The notes beneath the pieces are model-generated. The model ran no database searches. It was not told the origin of the DNA and saw nothing but the letters and a program-made list of their open reading frames with translations. A stretch of DNA of 40,869 nucleotides from Candidatus Woesearchaeota archaeon (lineage in GTDB: Archaea; Nanobdellota; Nanobdellia; Woesearchaeales; GW2011-AR9). The stretch covers positions 1 to 40,869 of the forward strand of contig CAMAVK010000006.1 of NCBI GenBank assembly GCA_945861715.1, read 5' to 3'. The stretch's first letter is position 1, and every line of letters starts with the position of its first letter. Positions 11,697-40,869 of this stretch are shown here, in pieces. The translations under genes and the position numbers were made by a program.

Positions 11697-12482
11697 TCAC
11701 TTCATCTTTTCTTGCACTATAGAAAATAATTCTTCCGATACTAAAGGAGTATGAATGCCCTTACTCTCAACTCCTGCAAACTTACTATCACCCAGATAAG
11801 CACGATTTTCCAATATCTTCTTAACACCATTCACCGATAAATTATATCTGCGAGCAAGCGCATTCAAACTATCCCCTGCTACAAATTCAGAATACAACTC
11901 CGACACTAACCGCCCGCGAACAGGATCTACTTCCAGCTTCTTCTCAACCATCATATAGCCCCATGGCGCGCGTGACACAGCACCCCCTTCACGACTTTTA
12001 CGACCCATCCCAAATGATGTCCTCTCACCAATCACATTCCGCTCAAACTCTGCAAACGCTGAAATAATATGAAACATCAATTTCCCCGACGCCGACGCAG
12101 TTTCAATGCGATCTTGCAAAGAAATAAAATCAACCCCCCACTCCTTCAGCTTTTCAATCGTCAAAATTAAATCTTTCAAACTGCGAGAAAACCGATCTAA
12201 CTTGTAAATAAAAATCGCACGAAACTTTCCTGCCTGCGCATCAGACAACATTTCAACCATCGCCGGCCGATGTGCCAAATCCTTCCCAGACTTTCCTTCA
12301 TCCCGATACACCTTACCCAACTCATATCCAAGCGCAGTACAATAATTTCGAAGAGCTTCCTCCTGTCCCGCAAGCGAAAAACCCTGCATCGCCTGCTCCT
12401 CTGTGGAAACTCGGATGTAAATGGCAGCAAGAGCTGGCTTTCCAGCGTCAAATTGTGCACTAAGGGTAGTCTGTTTTCCCAT
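11697..12482 (-). CDS. Serine recombinase (resolvase/invertase N-domain plus Recombinase domain)
   Basis: From ATG 12482 the protein has 261 residues. The catalytic serine is Ser26 in Tyr-Ile-Arg-Val-Ser-Thr-Glu-Glu-Gln. The resolvase domain continues with Tyr-Arg-Asp-Glu-Gly-Lys-Ser-Gly and the active-site Tyr-Lys-Leu-Asp-Arg-Phe-Ser-Arg (arginines) motif. A C-terminal Recombinase-type DNA-binding domain starts at Arg-Ala-Pro-Trp-Gly-Tyr and ends with a helix-turn-helix-like region and Asn-Arg-Ala-Tyr-Leu-Gly. It lacks the zinc ribbon and coiled coil of large phage integrases, so it is a short form. A GTG at 12491 is the alternative start. It is probably the recombinase of a mobile or invertible element defined by the flanking repeats. 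Confidence 0.88.
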   Translation of the reverse strand: MGKQTTLSAQFDAGKPALAAIYIRVSTEEQAMQGFSLAGQEEALRNYCTALGYELGKVYRDEGKSGKDLAHRPAMVEMLSDAQAGKFRAIFIYKLDRFSRSLKDLILTIEKLKEWGVDFISLQDRIETASASGKLMFHIISAFAEFERNVIGERTSFGMGRKSREGGAVSRAPWGYMMVEKKLEVDPVRGRLVSELYSEFVAGDSLNALARRYNLSVNGVKKILENRAYLGDSKFAGVESKGIHTPLVSEELFSIVQEKMK

Positions 12483-12490
12483 GATGTGCA

Positions 12491-12514
12491 CTTAGGGCTC
12501 CCTAAGTATATAAA
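12491..12514 (-). promoter_or_regulatory. TATA box plus palindromic operator of the serine recombinase
   Basis: On the reverse strand TTTATATA (12507-12514) lies about 26 bases from the ATG at 12482, so the transcript would be leaderless or nearly so. Between box and start lies a perfect 7-bp inverted repeat, CTTAGGG-CT-CCCTAAG (12491-12506). A protein bound there would block polymerase loading; autoregulation by the recombinase is the simple guess. Confidence 0.55.
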
Positions 12515-35558: not shown

Positions 35559-35846
35559 CTATTTTCTTTTCTGATCGCCTTTCATATGTTCTTTCATATG
35601 ATCCTTCCCACTCTCTTTCATGTTATCTTTCCCATACTCTTTCATATGACCGGGCCCACGTTCCATAATATGATCGTTCATAGGTTCTTTCATATGATCT
35701 TTCCCATACTCTTTCATTTGTTCTTTCCCATGTTCTTTCATATAATTCTTAGAATTCACATGCTCATTAGAATTCATATCATGCATCGAACCCGAATGAT
35801 CTTTCGAGTTCATATGACCACTGGTATTATTTTTTGTATTTGGCAT
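35559..35846 (-). CDS. Met/His-rich repeat protein, 95 aa
   Basis: ATG 35846 lies nine bases after GGAGG, so it is chosen over 35885. The protein is built from short repeats of the form Tyr/His-Gly-Lys-Asp/Glu-His/Gln-Met-Lys-Glu, with the N-terminal part rich in Ser, Asn and His-Met pairs. It is very charged, without hydrophobic core or signal peptide, and probably disordered. Many Met and His side by side suggest soft-metal (copper or silver) or zinc binding. The DNA repeats are about 24-33 bases long (CATATGATC/CTTTCAT-like), so copy number could change by slippage. The upstream leader is the hairpin region at 35901-36175. Confidence 0.6.
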   Translation of the reverse strand: MPNTKNNTSGHMNSKDHSGSMHDMNSNEHVNSKNYMKEHGKEQMKEYGKDHMKEPMNDHIMERGPGHMKEYGKDNMKESGKDHMKEHMKGDQKRK

Positions 35847-35900
35847 CGTAGTAACCTCCTTATCTCCCGCAATATTATCACACATTACAATCTATAACTA

Positions 35901-36175
35901 AGGTGTAACGAAAACTCGCCTACTCGGGACTATCCCCGACCCAAGGGTCGGGGCTTTACGCCCCTCGCTACGCACAATAAAACTGCGATTTTATTGGCGC
36001 ACAGATAAAGTCGCTGCTTTATCTCGTGCTCTGGCGAGTTTTCGGAACAAGAAAGCCGAAGGCTTTCTGGTCAGAAAATCTTCGATTTTCTTGAACAGAA
36101 AGACAGCGGTTTACGGCAATTCATCCTCGACCTAGGAGGTCGAGGCTTTCTTGCTGTCTTTCTTGTAACCAAAAA
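35901..36175. other. Dense array of perfect hairpins (candidate structured RNA or recombination site)
   Basis: No gene. A 12-bp outer stem (35909-35920 with 36033-36044) encloses CCCCGACCC/GGGTCGGGG (35934-35942, 35945-35953), CAATAAAA/TTTTATTG (35975-35982, 35989-35996) and GATAAAG/CTTTATC (36004-36010, 36017-36023). Then come AGAAAGCC/GGCTTTCT (36050-36057, 36061-36068), AGAAAATC/GATTTTCT (36073-36080, 36084-36091) and an 11-bp stem AGAAAGACAGC (36097-36107, 36153-36163) enclosing CCTCGACCT/AGGTCGAGG (36125-36133, 36137-36145). GGGGC-TTTAC-GCCCC (35950-35964) competes with the first inner stem. On the reverse strand it is the leader of the Met/His-rich gene. Confidence 0.75.
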
Positions 36176-36327
36176 TAAAAATCAACTCCGCACTTCAACA
36201 AAAAATTACAACAAAAAAACATAAGCAAACAAAGAGAATACCTCTAACTATTTAACTTCTAGGTATATAGAAGAAATAGAACACATAAATTTATCTTGAA
36301 AGTTATGATTTTAATCCAACTGCAATA
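36176..36327. other. Non-coding AT-rich segment after the tyrosine recombinase
   Basis: I see no gene here. It separates the hairpin array from the recombinase stop at 36328 and is A-rich on the + strand. Confidence 0.5.
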
Positions 36328-37137
36328 TCAACAATCCTGTGGACTCCGTAACCCCTCTAAATCACTCGTATCAACTCGTTCATAAATTTGGGTGGTACGA
36401 ATATCCTTATGCCCCAGCATCTTCTGAATATACTCGATCTGAGTCCCAGCCCTCATATGATGTGTCGCAAACGCATGACGCAAACAATGCGGAGTCATAT
36501 TTTTTACCAACCCACAACTAGAAACCGCGTTTGCAACCACCTTTTCAACAGTAGCAGAAGTAATATGACCAGTAGGAGTATCAAATAAATAAAACGAACC
36601 TTTCCACACCCTAATTTTCAAATATTCACTAACCAACCCCAAAACAGAATAAGACAAAATGGTATACCTATCCTTCTTCCCCTTCCCTTGCCGAACAAGC
36701 AACAACCTTCGATCAAAATCAACATCCGAAACCCTAATCGAAATAAGTTCGGAACAACGAACCCCCGATGCATACAAAAGAGATATCACCAATTTGTGTT
36801 TCACATACGAAACAGCATCAATCAACAAATCAATCTCCGATTTAGACGGAACAACTCTAACCTTTTGCTCCCGCTTCTGAAATGGCAAAGAATAAAACCT
36901 CCTCTTCATCACTGTATTATAATAGAACAACAGTGCATTATGAGCAAGATTCACCGTACTACTACTCCGACCAGCACAAATATATTCCAACAAATATCTC
37001 TTAATATCTTGCTCCGTAACACTCTGCGGCTTCAAAGCAACCCACCGTAAAAAATCTTGATTATAATACAAATACACCTTCTGAGTCTTAAGAGAAAAAT
37101 TCCGCAACCTCATCTCATCCAACATCGCTTCAAACAT
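36328..37137 (-). CDS. xerA: Tyrosine recombinase, XerA/XerD type
   Basis: From ATG 37137 (GGTGA about six bases upstream) the protein has 269 residues. The N-terminal SAM-like domain spans about 1-90. Catalytic residues are Arg127 (Gly-Val-Arg-Cys-Ser-Glu-Leu), the Lys in Gly-Lys-Gly-Lys-Lys-Asp-Arg, His217 and Arg220 (His-Cys-Leu-Arg-His), His243 (Leu-Gly-His) and Tyr252 (Thr-Thr-Gln-Ile-Tyr). The ending Leu-Arg-Ser-Pro-Gln-Asp is typical. It may resolve chromosome dimers, or move the nearby cassette-like genes. It lacks the extra helix inserted in integron integrases, so it is not a canonical IntI. Its flanks are both hairpin-rich. Confidence 0.92.
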   Translation of the reverse strand: MFEAMLDEMRLRNFSLKTQKVYLYYNQDFLRWVALKPQSVTEQDIKRYLLEYICAGRSSSTVNLAHNALLFYYNTVMKRRFYSLPFQKREQKVRVVPSKSEIDLLIDAVSYVKHKLVISLLYASGVRCSELISIRVSDVDFDRRLLLVRQGKGKKDRYTILSYSVLGLVSEYLKIRVWKGSFYLFDTPTGHITSATVEKVVANAVSSCGLVKNMTPHCLRHAFATHHMRAGTQIEYIQKMLGHKDIRTTQIYERVDTSDLEGLRSPQDC

Positions 37138-37225
37138 ATCATTCACCAAACCCTATTACGTGACACCTTTGTATATTAACCCTATCCGAAGTTGTCCAGT
37201 GCGGGAGTGGCTCCAAAAAATTCCT

Positions 37226-40646: not shown

Positions 40647-40795
40647 GGTTTTGTTGAAAAGTTCGAAAGAAATATAGCTAAGCACCGTCTTTAATACGTT
40701 ATTTCACAACGATTAAAAAAGGTGCTAGCTATGATAAATCAAGAACAATCTTTCTTAAATTCTTTGTGGTCTATGACCACGGATTTGTGCCATCA
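40647..40795 (+). mobile_element. 5' end of an insertion sequence, right copy
   Basis: This is the inverted copy of 1-149 (one difference in 149). It begins at GGTTTTGTTGAAAAG, with unrelated sequence before it, so 40647 is the likely element border. It contains a 12-bp stem with one bulged A (40674-40686 with 40721-40732) whose right arm ends in the transposase start codon. Confidence 0.8.
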
Positions 40796-40869
40796 AGCAC
40801 AAATACCGTTGTATCGAGAAACAAATGACCCGAGAATATTTACCTATCCCCAAAAACTTTGTCTCTACC
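40731..40869 (+). CDS. IS transposase, N-terminal fragment (runs off the right edge)
   Basis: The frame from ATG 40731 is open to the window end (46 codons). It reads MINQEQSFLNSLWSM, then Gln-Ile-Pro-Leu-Tyr-Arg ... Phe-Thr-Tyr-Pro-Gln-Lys-Leu-Cys-Leu-Tyr. The Pro-Leu-Tyr and Tyr-x-Gln-x-Leu spacing fits the N-terminal region of IS5-type DDE transposases of archaea. The catalytic domain lies outside the window. Confidence 0.6.
   Translation, partial: MINQEQSFLNSLWSMTTDLCHQAQIPLYRETNDPRIFTYPQKLCLY

Follow-up and report, generated by a model that had tools for sequence, protein, structure and literature searches.

What is the dense cluster of perfect hairpins at positions 35906–36168 of the window (here, the whole stretch of 40,869 nt that was analyzed), lodged among archaeal-looking genes for ribosomal proteins, a NusA-like KH protein and L7Ae/L30e? 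The initial annotation, made from the sequence alone, had offered three readings: a metal-sensing leader RNA of the adjoining Met/His-rich gene, a new structured RNA, or a fold-back site of the IS or integron type linked to a neighboring recombinase gene. Comparison within the genome and with other archaeal genomes leads us to a different picture, in which the stretch is very probably a nest of mobile DNA elements, non-autonomous and without genes, that have inserted into one another.

The hairpin cluster folds alike on both strands

The hairpins had been located to within a few bases of where we find them. At least seven packed perfect stems had been counted, two of them enclosing others; eight perfect stems of 8–12 bp are seen within 35895–36180, and those enclosing others measure 12 bp (35909–35920/36033–36044) and 11 bp (36097–36107/36153–36163). 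The rest comprise a 9-bp stem forming a GC-rich tip (CCCCGACCC/GGGTCGGGG, 35934–35942/35945–35953), two stems of 8 bp each (CAATAAAA/TTTTATTG and AGATAAAG/CTTTATCT), two further 8-bp stems within 36048–36093, and one of 9 bp at 36125–36133/36137–36145. A mutually exclusive pair of stems had also been described correctly, as pairing of CCCCGACCC with GGGTCGGGG is incompatible with that of GGGGC and GCCCC (35950–35954/35960–35964).

Predicted folding energies of the nest are −118.8 kcal/mol for the plus-strand RNA, −121.9 kcal/mol for the minus-strand RNA and −72.9 kcal/mol for DNA, corresponding to z-scores of −10.1, −9.5 and −10.4, respectively, relative to dinucleotide shuffles, of which none (0/200) matched the stability of the native sequence. 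That both strands fold with similar strength suggests DNA palindromes rather than a single RNA. A search of the window against Rfam 15 returned no match above the gathering score.

Taken as a whole, the nest is an outer double hairpin holding smaller double hairpins and tip hairpins, and is bounded by TAA direct repeats at 35906–35908 and 36166–36168 that represent a candidate target duplication of 2–3 bp. The outer left hairpin (35909–36044), closed by the 12-bp stem, encloses the GC-rich tip with its alternative pairings (35934–35964) as well as a 56-bp double hairpin, DH1 (35973–36028), which has a second type of foot (CAC..GTG) and the loops CTGCGA and CAGCGA. The outer right hairpin (36096–36165) consists of the arms CAGAAAGACAGC (36096–36107) and GCTGTCTTTCTTG (36153–36165) and a tip hairpin at 36125–36145. 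At the center of the outer double hairpin sits DH2 (36048–36093), a double hairpin of the CAAGAAA family described below, composed of units 36048–36069 and 36072–36093 around a central GT (36070–36071) and bracketed by a 2-bp AA duplication (36046–36047 and 36094–36095). The position of DH2 at the center and of DH1 inside the left hairpin accounts for the nested stems of the initial annotation. Agreement with the double-hairpin anatomy is only loose for the outer nest and for DH1; a relative of DH1 on contig C1 (L005) has both stems altered, on both arms.

The window's own genome comprises 1.3 Mb in 8 contigs. Structure scans covered 335 kb, or about a quarter of it, alongside sequence searches of the genome. 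Rigid-stem scans for hairpin clusters and double hairpins over these 335 kb had low power, because a bulged base interrupts the perfect stems, and a GC-regressed energy scan gave a weak signal; its version with shuffles called 15 structured places in the scanned stretches, including further nests and one 23S rRNA-like region. The window itself contains a second strongly structured intergenic place (40681–40840; z of about −7.5) with TAGCTAAGCACC/GGTGCTAGCTA and two more hairpins, which is probably another palindromic element.

The nest recurs in an unrelated context

Searching the own genome revealed a second copy of the nest at C5:15901–16105, with ~94% identity over most of its length, in two pieces. 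This copy is flanked by a ribosomal-protein-like gene on one side and a DnaJ-like gene on the other (named from their translations), and neither a Met/His-rich open reading frame (ORF) nor a tyrosine recombinase gene is present next to it. The flanks of the two copies are unrelated, and homology between the window's copy on C6 and that on C5 reaches no further than the left and right TAA at either site. The C5 copy has the GC-rich tip in altered form and lacks window positions 35973–36028, i.e. DH1, as a clean 58-bp gap; in one hairpin, GAAAGCC..GGCTTTC of the window is replaced by GAAACTC..GAGTTTC, both arms being altered.

This bears directly on the proposed 5′ leader RNA with a metal-sensing or some other regulatory role. 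The Met/His-rich ORF (35559–35846, minus strand) encodes 95 aa with internal repeats (MKEYGKDHMKE); it has no Pfam family and a weak, sub-cutoff match to GvpQ. The nest is indeed positioned upstream of its start and the minus strand folds very stably, yet so does the plus strand, to an equal degree. Besides the missing Rfam match, the nest occurs elsewhere without such a gene, and its variable parts are whole inserted elements that are found between unrelated genes in many genomes. A leader function, be it metal sensing or that of a new structured RNA, is thus most improbable, and we judge the ORF to be unrelated to the nest. The initial annotation had itself noted that copies elsewhere in the genome would make the stretch a mobile repeat rather than a leader; the C5 copy and many single-element relatives are such copies.

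A double-hairpin family is scattered through DPANN archaea

Matches to single parts of the nest served to derive a search pattern (CAAGAAA-hairpin-TTTCTG-NN-CAGAAA-hairpin-TTTCTTG), with the reversed pattern as control. The family element spans ~46–62 bp and can be written N1N2-[CAAGAAA..TTTCTG]-n2′n1′-[CAGAAA..TTTCTTG]-N1N2. Basically, two inverted hairpin units of ~29 nt stand 2 bases apart, each with an unpaired A near the outer foot and frequently a 6-nt loop of consensus MAACKA. The own genome holds six copies under a looser and five under a strict form of the pattern. Matches were present in 18 of 371 genomes of the phylum and in 22 of the 49 genomes of the window's taxonomic family; the reversed pattern matched neither in the own genome nor in any of the 371. 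Across GTDB representative genomes, at least 108 stretches matched, nearly all of them in DPANN archaea; among the matches listed, the family is common to contigs titled Woesearchaeota, Pacearchaeota and Nanoarchaeota, and two stretches fall in one Altiarchaeales genome. The viral contigs searched with the pattern yielded no match and hence no sign of viral carriage. Matches in Aquimarina and Halomonas, devoid of flanking duplications, are probably due to chance. One match on a 'Nomurabacteria' contig (L088) has flanks resembling those of the own-genome copy at C1:172064, and may be misbinned or transferred.

Most units found (201 of 233) stand in inverted hairpin pairs. The elements are dispersed and symmetric, with no conserved bases beyond the 2-bp repeat, and 47 of 51 testable sites lie outside long open frames, as compared to 26% of random positions in the same loci. 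In the loci read, no pair of units was seen to flank a gene, as the ends of an autonomous transposon would. A tandem inverted array on C1 (L019, 15901–16120), TTAGTTGATT../..AATCAACTAATATTAGAAAGAG in several copies, has a structure unlike the double hairpins.

Flanks and center obey a two-base rule

An exact 2-bp direct repeat flanks 96 of the 109 copies. As many copies lie within larger dispersed host repeats, those with related flanks were collapsed, leaving 67 flank-distinct sites, 60 of which have an exact 2-bp repeat, with a longer repeat at only one. The repeated dinucleotide is TG, CA, TA or CG at 48 of these 60 sites, and at 53 of them it is the reverse complement of the center dinucleotide (mean of 11.7 and maximum of 23 in 2000 shuffles). 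At the seven sites without a repeat, one of the two sides matches the center, the expected outcome of a later mutation in one flank. Copies in the own genome follow the center rule less well, and DH2 breaks it (AA..GT..AA). The same combination is found at L040, and L212 has AA and GT, too.

An occupied site at C1:270808 can be compared with empty homologues at C4:6604 and C1:305841. The difference is a 58-bp gap, equal to a 56-bp element plus a TG duplication, with the empty site reading CACGAGGTGCAAAAAT and the occupied one CACGAGG-TG-[56 bp]-TG-CAAAAAT; judged from these alignments, this is the classic result of an insertion with 2-bp target duplication. The copy concerned sits inside a host repeat that has relatives without the element. 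A larger dispersed repeat with double-hairpin arms GAGAACTTTGC..GCAAAGTTCTC, represented by L006, L007, L008, L010 and L029 (on C4, C1 and C5), hosts small elements and is the source of the occupied/empty pair. More generally, hosts are often larger double hairpins with a small element at their center (e.g. G084, L182–L186 and L207–L208). It is evident from copies whose host flanks closely resemble each other that a large part of the copy number stems from amplification of larger host repeats, and not from movement of the small element by itself.

L043 and L058, which share one hairpin pair, were considered as independent insertions with different duplications and dismissed, their host flanks being homologous. 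At the homologous host sites L195 and L196 (G183), the same hairpin pair surrounds the same center (CA) and is flanked by TA..TA or CG..CG, respectively, both flanking dinucleotides having changed together. Two further elements (L104, 5764–5811; L083, 2251–2303) have a 4-base center, each hairpin foot being complementary to its own flank (CC..GG+CG..CG).

Stems change in pairs, one hairpin at a time

The first few stem pairs are set by the search pattern and hence uninformative; in the remaining stem columns, 69–76 of 76 distinct units are complementary, with up to four pair types per column (shuffled means 22–38). Loops group around AAACTA, CAACGA and AGAATA. Among elements with both units of 29 nt, the two hairpins tend to differ in loop type (AAACTA-like together with CAACGA-like), and none has two AAACTA or two CAACGA loops.

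At homologous sites, 17 compensated pair changes were counted in stems vs. 5 single changes. Such changes are usually confined to one hairpin, with its partner and the flanks remaining constant (e.g. L047, L068, L142 and L206). As point mutation followed by selection should leave more single steps, the few comparisons available fit better with exchange of whole hairpins or with template-switch correction.

Relation to known mobile repeats

The nearest functional parallel is the REPINs/BIMEs of bacteria with their RAYTs. These, too, are short, gene-less and intergenic, replicate as pairs of inverted hairpin units, and share unpaired stem base(s), compensatory stem changes and presumed mobilization in trans (PMC3116915, PMC8266576). 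The DPANN elements differ in their exact 2-bp repeats, flank-complementary center, hypervariable inner stems and archaeal host. Their foot is NN-CAAG with varying NN, without the GTAG/CGTC tag, and most carriers have no cognate Y1 transposase; lacking tag and RAYT, they are not classed as REPINs.

The Allomyces mitochondrial double-hairpin elements likewise consist of two adjacent small hairpins with evidence for mobility; in an article citing them they are reported without flanking duplications, whereas 60 of 67 DPANN sites have one, in an archaeal rather than mitochondrial setting (PMC2800124). The DPANN elements resemble mitochondrial GC clusters as well. Those of yeast have AG or ACT repeats, and one or two fixed target sequences as opposed to nine dinucleotides in the DPANN elements; they are mitochondrial, and the accessible part of the source does not mention a center–flank rule for them (PMC4478555). 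With prokaryotic MITEs, the elements have in common that they are non-autonomous and combine terminal inverted symmetry with a target duplication (the 2-bp repeats and the occupied/empty pair), but they are far shorter, form two separate hairpins and have no parent transposon in the loci read. Unlike integron attC sites, they are dispersed instead of being clustered as cassettes beside an integrase, of which no homologue was found in G167 with its nine elements.

The dinucleotide rule, the modular hairpins and the missing RAYT set the DPANN elements apart from REPINs and GC clusters. The open-licence papers searched gave no description of palindromic mobile repeats for DPANN archaea, and the double-hairpin family has apparently not been described before.

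Candidate enzymes and mode of mobility

On the basis of these patterns, mobilization might proceed as follows. An enzyme supplied in trans would act on the element and cut the target with a 2-nt stagger at a dinucleotide, mostly a pyrimidine–purine step, that is matched to the central one either through pairing with the hairpin foot or through core matching between recombination sites. Joining of the element to the target would leave the dinucleotide on both sides, and insertions into older palindromes would build up a nest. This could amount to a hitherto unknown way for DNA to move in DPANN archaea, with paired modular hairpins, 2-bp duplications at center-matched dinucleotides, single hairpins exchanged at a fixed site, and an enzyme other than a RAYT or any known transposase; we regard the proposal as tentative and less likely than not.

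Which enzyme might be responsible? The neighbor suspected initially, a XerA/integron-integrase-like tyrosine recombinase (36328–37149, minus strand), would make the elements attC-like sites of an integron. It scores narrowly below the archaeal XerA/integron-integrase model (211 vs. 220 bits) and also scores to integron integrases, but homologues occur in 46 of the 49 family genomes irrespective of elements, and G167, with nine elements, yielded none. The dispersal and symmetry of the elements and the absence of conserved bases outside the 2-bp repeat speak against this idea, too, rendering it very improbable; we judge the recombinase to lie outside the system. The fold-back reading of the initial annotation therefore holds in its first half, mobile fold-back DNA, and not in its tie to the adjacent gene. 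IS110, present in 2 of 11 carriers and absent from 9, is likewise not supported as mobilizer.

Serine recombinases make 2-nt staggered cuts and require matching core dinucleotides. The window encodes one (11697–12491, minus strand; 264 aa, PF00239 and PF07508), and a core dinucleotide matched between target, element ends and center would account for the 2-bp repeats and the center rule, while recombination at the center would swap units. Its orthologue is found in 9–10 of the 11 family genomes with at least three copies vs. 8 of the 38 others (counting strong matches and a partial gene in G199), a comparison among related carriers whose three-copy cut was chosen after seeing the data; by presence or absence alone, the difference is weak (10 of 22 carriers vs. 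7 of 27 non-carriers). Moreover, no such gene was found in G052 (100% complete, six copies), G200 or G356. The association is suggestive and makes the enzyme a candidate mobilizer, although this route remains on balance unlikely.

Less likely still is a route by end-capping. After a break that leaves 2-nt overhangs (made e.g. by Topo VI or a nuclease), each end would receive a hairpin oligonucleotide; the ends would then fold back, be filled in and rejoined, such that the center is newly made from the target each time. This would directly give N1N2-H1-n2′n1′-H2-N1N2, permit two unrelated hairpins per element and fit the L104 variant with its two different dinucleotides (CC..GGCG..CG). Topo VI subunit A is encoded in 20 of 21 genomes; being nearly universal, with or without elements, it is uninformative as a mobilizer. 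We found no clean example in which the same two hairpins enclose different centers at sites unrelated to each other, and know of no source of free hairpins.

A REPIN mechanism is about equally unlikely: a Y1 (HUH) transposase of RAYT type would act on hairpins in single-stranded DNA, and the central dinucleotide would guide it to the cleavage site. Two inverted hairpins and a bulge are common to both, compensatory changes are on record for REPIN hairpins (PMC3116915), and cleavage sites of IS200/IS605 and, by model, of REP are set by base pairing with guide nucleotides next to the hairpin (PMC8266576). However, Y1_Tnp occurs in only three of 10 other carriers; it is missing from the remaining 7, carriers of 9–13 copies included, as well as from the own genome, and is not supported as mobilizer. 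The GTAG/CGTC tag is absent, and a two-sided 2-bp direct repeat does not appear as a feature of REP or IS200/IS605 in the available portions of these two sources (PMC8266576, PMC3116915).

Implications for DPANN genomes

DPANN archaea, small symbiotic organisms, have small genomes, and scans of genomes can mistake nests of this kind for riboswitches or leaders. For the mobile double hairpins favored here, the flank–center–flank dinucleotide rule acts as a mechanistic fingerprint: it limits the candidate enzymes to those combining a 2-nt staggered cut with a matching step, and it is testable with short oligonucleotides. The paired stem changes, affecting one hairpin per time, bear on how perfect palindromes are kept up, be it that selection, unit exchange or template-switch correction is at work.
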